Shown here piece by piece: positions 20,806 through 28,947 of a stretch of DNA of 64,000 nt. How positions within the stretch are numbered: position 1 is the stretch's first letter; each line of letters starts with the position of its first letter. Under the pieces are notes generated by a model, which ran no database searches, had not been told where the DNA came from, and saw only the letters and a list, made by a program, of their open reading frames with translations. The DNA comes from Saprospirales bacterium (GTDB lineage Bacteria; Bacteroidota; Bacteroidia; Chitinophagales; Saprospiraceae): positions 1 to 64,000 of the forward strand of contig REEO01000060.1 in the NCBI GenBank assembly GCA_007695035.1, written 5' to 3'. Both the position numbers and the translations under genes were made by a program.

Positions 20806-23800
20806 TTATTCCGTTATAAAAACTTTTTCCTGCAATTCCACATCACCAGACCGAACTATCATCAGGTACATACCCGGTGCCAAACCATTTGCTTCAACCC
20901 GATTGCCACTTTGGCTGATACTACCGCTGCGGATCATTTTTCCCGCGGTATCGAACAAATAAAATTCGTGCTCATTGCCGTGTAGCTCCTCCAGTCCGGC
21001 GACATAAAAGGTTCCGGTGGAGGGGTTGGGGAATATTTTGAGGGAATGGGCCTGTGGGTCAGTTGTGGAGGTGATACTGTTTCCAAAGACAGCGATATTG
21101 TCGTACCGGTTGTTTCCATTTCCCTGATCGGTATTACCCTCATAGGTGATCCTGACTGCAAAATTGGGATTGTCTTCAGCGCCCTCGACCCCGGTCAGGT
21201 CAATTGTGTGGGTGACATATTCTTCAGTAATCCCGATTTTATCCGGGTAAATTTCCTCATTGTTGAAGTTTATCCCATCCACTGTATATTCAAACCTGTT
21301 ATAAAGCATTCCCTGACCACTTCGATGGACATCAAAAGTAAGCACAATGTCCTTTGCACCGTTGGTTGGAATTTGGATGATCAACGCCCGACCTTCCGAT
21401 CGATTGCGAACGCGCAAAGCAGCACCTGCGGGGTAATCCATTTGGGTATTGAGGTCACTTCCATTTACATAATCATCCATGTATCCTTTGGTCACATTCG
21501 TATCCTCTTCGTAATCCGGTAAAAATCCGTAAAATATAATGGGTTTATCTCCGTGTACATTGGAGTAATCCGCCTCAACTTCCTCTATGGTACCAACTGG
21601 AATACCATTGAAATGCCAGTAGTGTAAAAGCCCAAGGGGGAAATCTGAAAGGTTTATTTCCAGTGTGGTATCCGATTGAATATCCACCAGACGGTCAAAG
21701 GTAATAAAACCCTCTTTTTCAGCCCTCAAATGGTACTCGCCTCTCACTCTTTCAAAGGCCACTGTACCATCCTGATCCGTCAGTTTTAACTCTCCGTCAA
21801 GAGTAACTTCCACATCCTCAAGCGGCCCATCGCTGTCAACCACTCTTACTTCAATCTGCAGATCCTCCAATACTTCCAGCCTTACTGTATCTTCAAAACC
21901 ACCCTCTTCGGTTCTTACTATTATATCAGAAAGTCCCGCAGCAACACCTGTGGCGAGACCATTTTCATCAATGATTGCCACAGATTCGTCTTCCGACCTC
22001 CAGCTCACCTCCTGATTTCCGGCTCCGGGTGGCAATACAATGGCTGTAAAAGAGAATGTCTCTCCCACCGGAATTTCGGCATCGCCTTCATTAATAACCA
22101 CTCCGGATACAGGTTCGTCCAGAGGTGTACCCTCCAGTACCACGTTATCAAAGCGGTTGTTGCCGTTATCAGCTGTATTTTGCTCTAAAAATCGGATTAC
22201 AACAGCAAAATCTTCATTGTCATTGGCTTCAGCTATGTCTGAAAAGTTAAATTCCACCAGACGGTAGTCGGTGACGATGTCAACGGTATCACCAAAGGAC
22301 TCAAAGGTCTCTCCGTCGGTTGTGTAATACAACACTTGCTTCAACATGCCCTGTCCCGACCGCTCGGTGGCATAGCTCAATCGCAGATCTTCGTACCCTC
22401 GTGAATTCAATGTAATCAACAATTCGCCGTTGATTGAGGGGTTGCGCGCTCTGATTCCCCTATCGGCCGGTTCGTTTTTCCTGGCATTGATGTTGGTTCC
22501 TGCCACATCATCCATGATGCCGATATTATCGCCAGCCTCATCGATTTGCCGATATAATATGAAGGGAGCCTCGGCTCCGGAAAAGTAATCTGCATGCACG
22601 GTATCCAGCACTCCATCGGCCTCGTTAAAGTGCCAGTAATGGACCAATTCAATTTCCCGGATGGGGTTACCCTCCAGTGCGATGTTGTCAAAGCGGTTGT
22701 TCCCACTTGTTCCCGTATTTTGACCCAAAAATCTGATCTTTACTCCAAAGTCCGGATTGTCATTGGCCTCGGGTATGTCTGAAAAGTCAAAATACTCCAA
22801 TCTGTAATCAGATGCCACTTCAATGGTATCTCCAAAGGGGTGAAAATTTTGACCATCTGTTGTGTAGTAAAGCAACTGGTAGAGCATGCCGGAACCGGTC
22901 CGCTCCGAGGCATAAGTCAGCAATAAATCTTCATATCCCTCCGAGTTGAGTTCTATGAGGAGCTCCCCGTTTTCAGATGGGTTGCGCGGGCGTATTCCCC
23001 TGCCATCGTCGTATCCAATGCGGGCATTTATATCCGTACCTCCCACATCATCCATGATGCCGATATCGGGACCATCCTCATCAATTTTTTGGTAGCGAAT
23101 GAAAGGTGCATTGTTGCTTTCAAAATAATCAGCCGGCACATCGCCCAAATCTCCGTCGGCTTCATTAAAGTGCCAGTAATTTACCAGCCTTTCGCGAAAG
23201 TCAGCCAAATTAAGCGTAAGTGTTGTATCTGAAGTCAATTCTATCTCCCGGTTCAGGGGTAAAAAGTCGGGGTCATCCACAGTTAATTGGTAAAGACCTG
23301 CGCCGCGATGAAATACAACTGCTCCATCGGATCCTGTTTCCTGGATCTCGCCGTTCAATCCGACTTCAACACCCTCGACCAATCCAAACCTGCTTTCCAA
23401 TTGCACTTCCAACTCAAAGGGCGCAATTACCTCTATAGTTGCCGTATCTTCAAACCCTCCCTCATCGGTAGATACAATTACAAAAGCAACCCCGGGAGAT
23501 TGAGCAGTCACCAGCCCGGAATTGGAAACGGTTACTACAGCTTCATCTTCTGACCTCCATTCAACATTGCGGTTGGTAGCGTGCAGGGGCAAAACCGCTG
23601 CGGTTAACTGCGCACTGTCACCAGTGACGAGAGTCAGTTCTTCAGGGTCTACTTCTACTCCTTCCACATCGGACCCAAGGGGAATGCCGTCGAGGGCGAT
23701 GTTGTCAAACCTGTTGTTGCCACTGTCCCCGGTATTTTGACCCAAAAAACGTATGCGCACTGCAAAATCCGGATTGTCATTGACTTCTGGAATATCCGCA

Positions 23801-24816
23801 AAATCAAACCAGAGAAGATTATAGTCACTGGCCACTTCCACGGTGTCACCGAAGGGCAGGAAGTTCTCCCCATCCACGGTGTAGTACAGCACCTGGTACA
23901 ACATACCGGAGCCAGTTCTCTCCGAGGCATAACTCAGCATTATATCGCTAAATCCAACGGTACTCATTTTTAAAAAGAGTTCCCCGTTGGCAGAGGGATT
24001 TCGCGGACGGATACCACGTCCTGCATCTTCATTGTTTCTTGCATTGATCGAGCTACCACCTACATCGTCCATAATTCCAATGTCATCTCCACTGGAGTCT
24101 ATTTTTTGATAGCGCAAAAAAGACGGGGCATCTGATGGGAAGAAATCAGAGAAAACAGTATCCAGCTCACCATTAACATCATTGAAATGCCAGTAGTGAA
24201 TAAGTCCGGGGGGGTCTAAGATTGGGTCCCCTTCCAATACAATGTTATCAAATCGGTTATTACCATTGCTGATGGCATTTTGCTCCAAAAATCTTATTGC
24301 TACAGCAAAGTGTGGGTTGTCATTGACCTCCTCGATACCTGAGAAATCAAAGTTCACCAATTCATAACTGGTGGTTATACCAACAGTGTCCCCAAAGGGA
24401 ATAAACTCCTCGCCGTCCAGAGTGTAATAGAGCACTTGTCGCAGCATTCCTGAGCCAGAGCGTTCCGTGGCGTAAGAAAGTGTCAAATTCTCGTGACCCT
24501 CACTGTTCAAGTTAATTAGCAATTCGCCATTCACAGAGGGGTTTCTGGCACGAATACCGTTCCCGGCCTCAAATCCCAGGCGGGCATTTACATCCGACCC
24601 ACTCACATCGTCCATAATTCCTATGGGTAGCCCATCGGGTTCAATCTGGCGATAGAGCACAAAAGATGGTTCATTGCTGTGGTAAAAATCCGCATTGACT
24701 GTATCCAATTCGCCGGATTCATCATTGAAGTGCCAATAGTGCAAGATTTCCTGTGCCTGAAGTCCACAAGTAAAAAGCAATCCCGGAAGAAGTAAAAATT
24801 TGATAGCCCTTTTCAT
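20806..24816 (-). CDS. Large repeat-built T9SS cargo protein
   Basis: This 1336-residue secreted protein has a signal peptide (about 1-22, ending LQAQ) and a C-terminal T9SS type A sorting domain (about 1259-1336, opening LKIFPNPSTG). Between them lie five copies of a 175-180-residue domain that begins HYWHFN and ends NNRFDN (starts at about 26, 207, 546, 726 and 1065). Two bacterial Ig-like (BIG2-type) domains (about 384-465, 900-983) and two carboxypeptidase-regulatory-like domains (about 467-540, 985-1060) are interspersed. The order is A-A-Ig-Cp, A-A-Ig-Cp, A, tail, with a period of about 520 residues. The A domain may be a carbohydrate-binding or jelly-roll-like fold, but I do not recognise it. 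There is no catalytic motif. It is likely a surface adhesin or stalk. Confidence 0.88.
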   Translation of the reverse strand: MKRAIKFLLLPGLLFTCGLQAQEILHYWHFNDESGELDTVNADFYHSNEPSFVLYRQIEPDGLPIGIMDDVSGSDVNARLGFEAGNGIRARNPSVNGELLINLNSEGHENLTLSYATERSGSGMLRQVLYYTLDGEEFIPFGDTVGITTSYELVNFDFSGIEEVNDNPHFAVAIRFLEQNAISNGNNRFDNIVLEGDPILDPPGLIHYWHFNDVNGELDTVFSDFFPSDAPSFLRYQKIDSSGDDIGIMDDVGGSSINARNNEDAGRGIRPRNPSANGELFLKMSTVGFSDIMLSYASERTGSGMLYQVLYYTVDGENFLPFGDTVEVASDYNLLWFDFADIPEVNDNPDFAVRIRFLGQNTGDSGNNRFDNIALDGIPLGSDVEGVEVDPEELTLVTGDSAQLTAAVLPLHATNRNVEWRSEDEAVVTVSNSGLVTAQSPGVAFVIVSTDEGGFEDTATIEVIAPFELEVQLESRFGLVEGVEVGLNGEIQETGSDGAVVFHRGAGLYQLTVDDPDFLPLNREIELTSDTTLTLNLADFRERLVNYWHFNEADGDLGDVPADYFESNNAPFIRYQKIDEDGPDIGIMDDVGGTDINARIGYDDGRGIRPRNPSENGELLIELNSEGYEDLLLTYASERTGSGMLYQLLYYTTDGQNFHPFGDTIEVASDYRLEYFDFSDIPEANDNPDFGVKIRFLGQNTGTSGNNRFDNIALEGNPIREIELVHYWHFNEADGVLDTVHADYFSGAEAPFILYRQIDEAGDNIGIMDDVAGTNINARKNEPADRGIRARNPSINGELLITLNSRGYEDLRLSYATERSGQGMLKQVLYYTTDGETFESFGDTVDIVTDYRLVEFNFSDIAEANDNEDFAVVIRFLEQNTADNGNNRFDNVVLEGTPLDEPVSGVVINEGDAEIPVGETFSFTAIVLPPGAGNQEVSWRSEDESVAIIDENGLATGVAAGLSDIIVRTEEGGFEDTVRLEVLEDLQIEVRVVDSDGPLEDVEVTLDGELKLTDQDGTVAFERVRGEYHLRAEKEGFITFDRLVDIQSDTTLEINLSDFPLGLLHYWHFNGIPVGTIEEVEADYSNVHGDKPIIFYGFLPDYEEDTNVTKGYMDDYVNGSDLNTQMDYPAGAALRVRNRSEGRALIIQIPTNGAKDIVLTFDVHRSGQGMLYNRFEYTVDGINFNNEEIYPDKIGITEEYVTHTIDLTGVEGAEDNPNFAVRITYEGNTDQGNGNNRYDNIAVFGNSITSTTDPQAHSLKIFPNPSTGTFYVAGLEELHGNEHEFYLFDTAGKMIRSGSISQSGNRVEANGLAPGMYLMIVRSGDVELQEKVFITE

Positions 24817-25543
24817 ATAGCAAGTGATTTTTGCACAAATATGTAAAAACCCTGGAAAACGATGGATAAATTGTGTGTTAAATCCGGCTGCTGGGGGATA
24901 ATTAATTTCTTCTCAAATGTCTTCGCAAAAACCCAAATCCTGGGACGATTGAATGCGTTACGATATCACACAATTCAGCCAGGTCAATGAGATTGCAACA
25001 AAAGTAACCCTTTTTGAAACATAATGAGGTCCTTTAAGCGAGGCTTTCATCCGATCTTTGCCTCAGATTCTTTTACACAATTGGTGGATCTCTCTGCGCG
25101 AGTAAAAAATGCTCAAGAGAATAGAAAAACGCACAGGCGCATTTTCAATCTCTAGCTCTTTACTCTGGATTAAAACCCCTGGCCTATTACAGGAACTTAC
25201 ATCACAAAAGCAGAGAGGTCCTTTTTTTCTGCTTGTAATTCGGGGTACCTAATTCCATTTAAAATTTGCAATATTTTCCTTCAACCTTGTTTAATCATGA
25301 ACATCAATAAAAATTGGTCATTTTGTTACATAAGTGCACCTTTTTGAAACAATAGTGCAACATACACCCGGCAACTACCCGGATATTTGCGGTGGATTCT
25401 TTTTGATGTAGAGCTGTGTATCCCCGTCTGAAATATCCGGCTTACTTCATTCCAAATAATCCTGAGATATAATTCAATTTGGGTGTAAGCACTTAATGGA
25501 ATGAAATTAAGCCTAATTACGCAGAGCGGGGATACCAGTTCTT
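24817..25543. other. Gene-free stretch with direct repeat and possible structured RNA
   Basis: This 727-bp gap holds no credible ORF. Two short, similar segments, AAGTAACCCTTTTTGAAACA (25004-25023) and AAGTGCACCTTTTTGAAACA (25332-25351), lie about 330 bp apart. Between them is the candidate structured RNA at 25086-25228. The left 30 bp form the promoter region of the T9SS cargo gene. Confidence 0.5.
25086..25228 (+). ncRNA. Candidate small structured RNA ending in a U-tract
   Basis: An outer 12-bp stem pairs GGATCTCTCTGC (25086-25097) with GCAGAGAGGTCC (25210-25221), with one G-U pair. Inside it an imperfect long hairpin is closed by GAGTAAA (25100-25106) and TTTACTC (25159-25165). Within that, AGAGA/TCTCT, GAAAA/TTTTC and CGC/GCG pair further in. 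The 3' arm of the loop can form a small CCTG/CAGG hairpin. Seven T residues directly follow the outer stem, like an intrinsic terminator. The size of about 140-160 nt would suit a housekeeping RNA such as 6S, but I cannot assign a family. The fold was done by eye only. Confidence 0.38.
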
Positions 25544-26779
25544 TTAAAAAATCCCATTATCAACCGTGGTGGACAAAAGATCATCGAGGTTTTCCCTTCT
25601 GCGAATGAGATAATCCTTACCCTTGTAAATTAACACTTCGGCCGGTCTGGGCTTGCTGTTGTAGTTGGACGACATATTGAATGCATAGGCGCCTGCATTT
25701 AAGAAAGCCACCGTATCACCGGGTCTGAGTTCCGGCATTTTTCTACGCTTCGCAAAATTGTCGGTCTCGCATATGTACCCGACCAAATCGTACTCTTTCA
25801 ACCTCCCATCCGGATTGCTCAGATTGAGCATTTCGTGTTCGGTATCGTAAAACATGGGGCGCAAAAAGTGGTTGAAACCGGAATTAAGACCTGCAAAAGT
25901 CCCAACAGGTCCCTTCTTTATGGTGTTTACCGTAGTCAAAAACACACCGCACTCACTGACCAATATTTTTCCTGGTTCCGTGAGTATTTGAATGTCCCTT
26001 TTTAAATGCTTTTCCAGAGTGGTTCTCTTTTCCCTAATAAATTTCCCCAATAATTCCAGGTTCGAGCTGCTTCCACCGCGCCAATAGGGCACTTTAAAGC
26101 CACTTCCAATGTCCAGGTATCGTATATCGGGAAAATGAAGGGCGTGGTCGAACAACACCTCAATGGCCCGGAGGTACTGCTCGTCGTCTTGAATATCCGA
26201 TCCTACGTGAATGTGCAGTCCTTCAACCGGTATGGAGTGTGTTTTTGTCAGGCGAAGGATATCTGGAAGGTGAAAAATCGATATGCCAAATTTGGAATGC
26301 TCGTGGCCGACAGAAATTTTTTCATTGCCCCCGGCGTAAACATGGGGATTCAGCCGGATACAAACGGCTTGACCTGGGTGGTTCTCCCCAATATACTCCA
26401 ATGCCTCAAGGTCTCCTACATTAATTCTTACCCCTTTTTCCACTGCAAAATCATAGTCTTCGGGACCCACCATACTCGGGGTGAAGATGATGTCCTCCGG
26501 TTGAAATCCCGCCATCAATCCCAGTTCTAATTCCTCCACAGAGACCACATCAAGACCGGCACCCAGCTTTTTCATAAACCGGATAATGTTGATGTTGCTC
26601 AGGGCTTTGCAGGCGTACATGATCCTGAGTTTTTCAGGGCCGAGGGTATATTTCAGCCTGTGGTATTGTTCGGCAATTTTTTCCGCTACATACACATAAA
26701 GTGGACTCCCGTATTTGCCAATCAACTCATCGGGGGACACACCTCCTGTTAAGTTACCGTCCTCTCTTTTTTTCATCAT
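25544..26779 (-). CDS. lysA: Diaminopimelate decarboxylase
   Basis: LysA removes CO2 from meso-diaminopimelate to give L-lysine, the last step of the pathway. The 411-residue protein is a fold-III PLP enzyme: an alanine-racemase-like barrel with the PLP lysine Lys58 in YACKALSN, a glycine-rich GSGFK phosphate-binding loop near 225, EPGK near 270, and the C-terminal CETDNFAKRR motif carrying the catalytic Cys near 346. It is about the normal length. No aspartokinase is fused or adjacent. Two ATG codons (26779, 26776) are in tandem. The gene appears to stand alone. Confidence 0.93.
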   Translation of the reverse strand: MMKKREDGNLTGGVSPDELIGKYGSPLYVYVAEKIAEQYHRLKYTLGPEKLRIMYACKALSNINIIRFMKKLGAGLDVVSVEELELGLMAGFQPEDIIFTPSMVGPEDYDFAVEKGVRINVGDLEALEYIGENHPGQAVCIRLNPHVYAGGNEKISVGHEHSKFGISIFHLPDILRLTKTHSIPVEGLHIHVGSDIQDDEQYLRAIEVLFDHALHFPDIRYLDIGSGFKVPYWRGGSSSNLELLGKFIREKRTTLEKHLKRDIQILTEPGKILVSECGVFLTTVNTIKKGPVGTFAGLNSGFNHFLRPMFYDTEHEMLNLSNPDGRLKEYDLVGYICETDNFAKRRKMPELRPGDTVAFLNAGAYAFNMSSNYNSKPRPAEVLIYKGKDYLIRRRENLDDLLSTTVDNGIF

Positions 26780-28454: not shown

Positions 28455-28947
28455 TTGGTGGAGTTAGGAAAACAGGGCTCCTCATTCAAAATCCTTCAAA
28501 CTAAAATTTGAACCGGTCGCTATGGGATTATCGCTTCTATTTATCGGTTCTCTTGTTATAGCAAGACCGATTGGGAGGGTGAGGAGGGGTTTTGAAAATC
28601 TGTGAGGATGTCGTGAATCTATTAAATTCGTTCATTGATACAGTTCATAGTATTTTACTTGAATATAAATTGATGATTTTAGAAAGATTGGTGGTCCTGA
28701 TTGGAATTTAACCCAATTGCCCTTTACCGGGGAGATTATTTAAGGAGAAATACGGCTAAAGTTTACACCGGAGCCAACTAAGTAGATGTAAATTTGATTG
28801 TTGACTAAAGGTTAAAGGTATATGATTGCAGGATGATTGAAGAAAGGTTCTAAGGGTGGCTTGATGAGATTTGATGTAAACTTGATGCATAAATAATTAT
28901 AATCCTTTTTACCTTGCTGGGTTGATTACAGAGTTAAGAGTACTGGA
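28455..28947. other. Gene-free stretch with one imperfect hairpin
   Basis: About 490 bp with no ORF I believe. An imperfect hairpin lies at 28543-28571: ATCGG and TCTTG pair with CAAGA and CCGAT around a 6-nt loop, with a 3-nt bulge. It has no T-run, so it is not a clear terminator. The remainder is AT-rich. Confidence 0.4.

Follow-up and report, generated by a model that had tools for sequence, protein, structure and literature searches.

Does the gap between two genes of a Saprospirales bacterium, in which a sequence-only reading had noticed a large fold closed by a long stem and ending in a run of T residues, hold the gene for an RNA, and if so, of what kind? The stretch of DNA that was analysed (the window; 64,000 nucleotides) places the gap between a secreted-protein gene (20806-24816, - strand; Big_2, Por_Secre_tail, PEGA) and a PLP-dependent decarboxylase gene (25544-26779, - strand; Orn_Arg_deC_N, Orn_DAP_Arg_deC). 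As judged from sequence, the existence of two tandem, free-standing small-RNA genes on the + strand of 24990-25545 is well supported: each has, as sequence features, a promoter and a terminator of its own, and a regulator site is common to both. The two RNAs, referred to here as RNA1 and RNA2 (Table 1), probably have a regulatory role; we infer their transcription, mechanism and targets from the elements described below.

Structure and ends of the two RNAs

RNA1 is the element that had already been noticed. The outer 12-bp stem, the nested imperfect hairpin, the small 3' hairpin and the T7 tract ascribed to it are all present on the + strand: GGATCTCTCTGC pairs with GCAGAGAGGTCC (12 pairs, one of them U-G) and the small hairpin is CCTG/CAGG. 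The minimum free energy (MFE) is -46.7 kcal/mol, as against -26.6 (sd 3.39) in 200 dinucleotide shuffles (z -5.93, with 0/200 as low), so that RNA1 passes comparison with the controls that the sequence-only reading had named. The reverse strand of the locus also folds (z -4.73, with no shuffle as low). RNA1 is assigned to the + strand, with which its U-G pair, its T-tract and the promoter-like elements upstream of it agree. As to the description of the region as lacking an ORF, no frame of at least 80 codons lies over RNA1; a 47-codon ATG frame begins at about 25109. The corresponding place in G003, the genome of the closest relative, has no ATG, and the N-terminal part of the frame is different there. 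An ortholog in G003, a counterpart alike in architecture only, beside the same gene of a third genome (G004), conserved upstream elements and the lack of any Rfam match bear out the proposal of an uncharacterised structured RNA gene with a terminator-like end.

Table 1. Features of the intergenic region, in order of position
Feature	Coordinates	Strand	Remarks
Operator 1	24994..25026	+	two direct repeats TGnAACAnnAGT, ~21 bp apart; 2 mismatches to the operator pattern
-7-like box GATCTTTG, RNA1	25053..25060	+	likeness to the Bacteroidota TAnnTTTG element (as given in PMC7366714)
Common leader GATTCTTTT, RNA1	25066..25074	+	5 bases after TTTG; mean unpaired probability 0.96
RNA1 body	25086..25221	+	closing stem 25086-25097/25210-25221; hairpin 25100-25165; small hairpin 25178-25193
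T7 terminator-like tract, RNA1	25222..25228	+	
Operator 2	25324..25356	+	two direct repeats; 1 mismatch to the operator pattern
-7-like box GATATTTG, RNA2	25382..25389	+	
Common leader GATTCTTTT, RNA2	25395..25403	+	mean unpaired probability 0.65 when the fold takes in the A-run that follows the T-run
RNA2 body	25410..25542	+	closing stem 25410-25429/25525-25542, small bulges; rod-like interior
TTCTTTT terminator-like tract, RNA2	25539..25545	+	overlaps the decarboxylase stop codon (25544-25546, - strand)

The sequence-only reading had overlooked the promoter-like elements upstream of RNA1 and the second RNA downstream. The fold of RNA2 (25398-25548; z -7.10) is more extreme than that of RNA1. 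When 899 stretches, each 143 nt long, were sampled on a grid along the + strand and compared with 25 shuffles apiece (mean z -0.16, sd 1.09), RNA2 had the lowest z of all (-6.18); that grid missed the exact ends of RNA1, for which the frame starting at 25124 gave only z -2.8. RNA2 is convergent with the decarboxylase gene and reaches its stop codon; since the T-run of RNA2 overlaps that codon, the predicted transcripts of the two may converge at their 3' ends.

Both strands of the window were also scanned for stems of at least 10 bp with at most 2 G-U and at least 5 G-C pairs, arms about 60-230 bases apart and a T-run at the end. The scan returned the RNA1 locus and one weaker place, 28478-28586, where a 10-bp long-range stem (CTCCTCATTC/GGGTGAGGAG) is followed by GGGTTTTG, directly behind a DUF2807 gene.

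Operator, -7-like box and leader

Five upstream regions can be aligned: those of RNA1 and RNA2 in the genome of the window (G000), of both RNAs in G003 and of the single RNA in G004. Forty of the 92 columns are invariant and the spacing is fixed. Common to all five RNA genes are an operator of two direct-repeat sites, a TTTG box and an unvarying leader, the last two arranged as TTTG-N5-GATTCTTTT. The two sites are repeats of the TGnnACAnnAGT kind, with a ~21-bp period; 41-42 bases separate the second TGAAA from TTTG, which is part of a GATnTTTGY box, and 5 further bases lead to GATTCTTTT. The GATnTTTGY box resembles TAnnTTTG, the form in which the Bacteroidota -7 element is presented in PMC7366714.

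A sequence-only promoter model finds the five RNA loci at E <= 1.1e-20, the next best match among 119 genomes standing at 2.4e-6; the model is loose, with some match at E <= 1 in 111/119 genomes, and only the top ones were followed. A search of contigs with the promoter pattern yielded 55 stretches. The promoter model was run on 23 of these and on the window; among the stretches, only the G003 and G004 contigs exceeded 70 bits. The stem scan was run on all 55 and failed to detect RNA2 of G003, whose stem is bulged; the stems that it gave in L122, L132 and L156, which come from unrelated phyla, are rich in A/T and G·U and were taken as chance, as was a promoter-model match in L147 that by eye is thioredoxin-reductase coding sequence. 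The leader pattern TTTG-N5-GATTCTTTT is by itself not diagnostic, occurring in 62/100 genomes; among the matches listed, the operator stands upstream at the RNA loci only, and many of the others look coding by eye.

The operator extends beyond these RNAs. Its pattern, TGnAACAnnAGTnnnCCTTTTTGnAACAnnAGT, with up to 3 mismatches, has 21 matches in 11/80 genomes (L188-L208, L174-L182), as against 0 for the reversed pattern; the pattern was drawn in part from promoter-model hits, and those matches are not independent of it. The RNA promoters account for five of the 21, and G000 has two matches only, those of RNA1 and RNA2. Several of the other 16 precede frames that read as histidine kinase, response regulator, lipoprotein and secreted proteins (names read off the printed sequence and not taken from a profile search), and some stand near no 70-codon frame. 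In genera elsewhere in the order the operator is often followed by a TTTG box and a protein gene. None of these 16 has the leader at its expected place, and the leader is therefore not part of the operator promoter generally. As a set, the operator matches look like the regulon of one activator. LytTR was considered as the activator on account of the direct repeats and was set aside, the half-site being unlike the LytTR consensus. With the operator recognisable, also before genes read as sensor-kinase, response-regulator and secreted-protein genes elsewhere in the order, a search for the activator and its putative regulon is now possible.

Conservation, distribution and unlike bodies

By DNA similarity RNA1 is found in 2/60 genomes, G000 itself and G003 (88% identity). 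RNA2 is found in the same two (94%), and has in addition a 23-base match in G039 that lies inside a 538-aa frame and was taken as chance. Covariance models, each built from two sequences, find RNA1 and RNA2 in the same 2/60 genomes. The G003 ortholog of RNA1 folds comparably (z -5.39). A profile of identity along the aligned G000 and G003 intergenic regions, taken over bins of 25 columns, has two islands, 24992-25238 (0.68-1.0) and 25314-25538 (0.64-1.0), each composed of operator, box, leader and RNA. Identity between the islands is 0.20-0.56; upstream of them it is 0.36-0.72, apart from a first bin at 0.84, and in the last partial bin it is 0.28. Within each RNA the 3' half is better conserved than the 5' half (0.94 vs 0.82 for RNA1, 0.99 vs 0.90 for RNA2).

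How much these two genomes say about the exact fold is another matter. All 36 (RNA1) and 49 (RNA2) pairs of the RNAalifold consensus, a procedure that favours pairs open to both sequences, are kept in G000 and G003, with one double change in each RNA; for RNA1 the covariation thus amounts to 1 double change in 36 consensus pairs, between two sequences only. With random substitutions in paired columns as the expectation, the G000 folds have 5/44 (RNA1) and 3/53 (RNA2) pairs broken in G003 (expected 8.4 and 5.6); for the G003 folds the broken pairs are 5/41 and 1/49 (expected 6.3 and 3.2). This two-sequence comparison gives the exact folds weak support.

The genes occur in 3/8 genomes of the genus (G000, G003 and G004) and in none of the other genomes searched. 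In the remaining five of the genus (G001, G002, G005, G006 and G007; three of them only 67-74% complete) the best promoter-model matches have E 0.0023 or weaker. As to a mobile origin, two body pieces and the promoter pattern have no exact match in viral contigs, and 24990-25550 has no match in plasmids.

G004 has one RNA, on the same side of a decarboxylase gene whose product is 59% identical. It reads GATATTTGTGTCAGATTCTTTTTTGAT, then ACCGGTCACTG ... CAGTGGCCGGT and a T-run, and is closed by an 11-bp stem of new sequence (z -4.25). Its body is recognisable neither by the RNA1 and RNA2 covariance models, which do not find it, nor by local alignment: pairwise comparison of the RNA1, RNA2 and G004 bodies gives shuffle P values of 0.87, 0.24 and 0.06, none significant, the last two being those of the G004 body with RNA1 and RNA2, respectively. 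No 6-mer is common to the three. The G004 RNA thus repeats the design, with leader, closing stem and T-run around an unrelated body and the stem itself new in sequence. Visual inspection showed an RGCCUR motif towards the 3' side of each of the three RNAs; it was given no weight. By eye, no RNA was seen beside the decarboxylase gene in G005, G006 and G019.

Possible modes of action

The reading that we prefer, and on which our own judgement is evenly balanced, is that the tandem genes encode sibling regulatory RNAs under one activator, with the common 5' leader as a possible seed, in the manner of OmrA and OmrB. Each gene would be made up of a two-site operator, a Bacteroidota -7-like box, the leader GAUUCUUUU, a stem-closed body and a terminator-like T-run. 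A signal would turn the activator on and both RNAs would be produced together; closing stem and terminator would end both transcripts and stabilise and protect them; the common leader would base-pair with target mRNAs at A-rich stretches; and the unlike bodies would give each RNA its own partners or its own stability. The elements and their conservation are read directly from sequence; transcription, activator and pairing belong to the conditional part of this scheme. The leader, on average 65-96% unpaired and common to the five RNAs, is the best candidate seed, but it could instead belong to transcription initiation. The sibling-RNA reading is favoured by folds that lie far below their shuffles (z -5.93, -7.10, -5.39 and -4.25), by the two conservation islands and the alignable upstream regions, by the recurrence of the design in G004, by the absence of the leader from the other operator matches and by the lack of any reading frame kept throughout; against it stand the restriction to three genomes, the unlikeness of the RNA1, RNA2 and G004 bodies, the small number of compensatory changes and the G000 pairs that are broken in G003. 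The stronger conservation of the 3' halves is unexplained by a model based on the leader alone and would fit protein binding. Unlike bodies behind like promoters also make it testable whether leader or body is the working part.

OmrA and OmrB of E. coli are described in PMC4211561 as tandem, with the first 21 nt and last 35 nt near-identical and the middle divergent. What RNA1 and RNA2 have in common with them is the layout (tandem genes, a common 5' end and a differing middle), and no sequence relation is claimed. The differences are that RNA1 and RNA2 do not share the last 35 nt and that the leader is common over 9 nt in all five RNAs here, in place of 21. The RNAs themselves seem new, and none such was found in the literature on Saprospiraceae small RNA, as represented by titles and the opening parts of abstracts; their kind, activator-controlled sibling RNAs, is already known. 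To our knowledge, what has been learnt of regulatory small RNAs in the phylum comes mainly from Bacteroides and Flavobacterium.

Like promoters before unlike bodies are also what one would expect if the bodies soaked up an RNA-binding protein, as decoys of the RsmY/RsmZ or CsrB type, with only the promoter and short motifs staying alike. RsmX, RsmY and RsmZ likewise have like promoters before unlike bodies. They are also several RNAs under one activator, GacA. Many GGA motifs in loops are the mark of the Csr/Rsm class; the RNAs here have 2-4 GGA each (counted regardless of loops) where 1.3-1.8 are expected. That excess is small and the motif, unlike that of the Rsm RNAs, not clearly enriched; with no 6-mer common to the three RNAs besides, we regard decoys as unlikely. 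That there are no RNA genes here at all, and that the islands are paired terminators or other DNA-level intergenic elements, or a cis-acting antisense end of the decarboxylase mRNA, is very improbable. The folding of reverse strands (as at the RNA1 locus), the match of the RNA2 model to its own reverse strand (E 1.6e-8) and the position of RNA2 against the decarboxylase stop codon speak for it, but each RNA is preceded by promoter-like elements at fixed spacing, the T-runs are on the + strand, and RNA1 and the G004 RNA stand off from the decarboxylase gene. Small-peptide mRNAs are scarcely credible: frames in the conserved 3' parts do read alike in G000 and G003 (SLLWIKTPGLLQELTS in RNA1, MKLSLITQ in RNA2), but they do so because the DNA there is near-identical. 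Start codons, lengths and N-terminal parts are not the same in the two genomes, and the G004 RNA contains nothing comparable.

The resemblance to 6S RNA that the sequence-only reading had pointed to is not supported on closer inspection. Size, a long closing stem and the rod-like shape of RNA2 would be in keeping with 6S-type RNAs of this order that lie beyond the reach of the Rfam models and act as open-promoter mimics that hold RNA polymerase. Bacteroides and Flavobacterium possess 6S RNA, according to PMC7366714 and PMC9723704, and 6S-Flavo is given as a Bacteroidetes motif in PMC2864571; none was recognised in the relatives here. The window has no Rfam match at the gathering threshold, and neither 24800-25560 (E up to 10) nor the G003 and G004 loci (E up to 5) yielded 6S or 6S-Flavo, the only matches below threshold being to the unrelated eukaryotic families MIR5565, SNORD87 and PART1_3. 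Genome searches found 6S (RF00013) in 0/40 relatives and in 5/14 control genomes, and 6S-Flavo (RF01685) in 0/40 relatives and also in 0/14 controls, so that the silence of the latter model alone proves little. By the definition in PMC4211561, 6S RNA is a rod, double-stranded for the most part, that is opened by a large bulge at its centre. RNA1 branches, and the 5' strand of its would-be bubble is just 2 nt long; RNA2, though rod-like, has small internal loops only. With bodies confined to 2/60 genomes and a gene-specific operator common to the two RNAs, a 6S-type function is quite improbable. The end-closing stem, 3' U-run and variable interior are traits of bacterial Y RNA as well; this candidate was rejected, the TROVE (Ro) protein being found in 0/8 genomes of the genus and in 1/14 control genomes.

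One further scheme, which we consider unlikely, is a cassette in which operator, start box and 9-nt leader stay fixed while the body is replaced, or diverges beyond recognition, from one neighbouring gene or related species to the next, and only the closing stem is remade. Two of the five RNAs carry in the body an exact 10-nt antisense copy of their own -7 region, which could point to self-directed control. The copy is absent from the other three, the G003 RNA2 included. In the RNA2 of G000 it involves ~25377-25386 with ~25431-25440 (P 0.0075), and in the G004 RNA, positions of L077 near 1230-1240 with 1350-1360 (P 0.0025).
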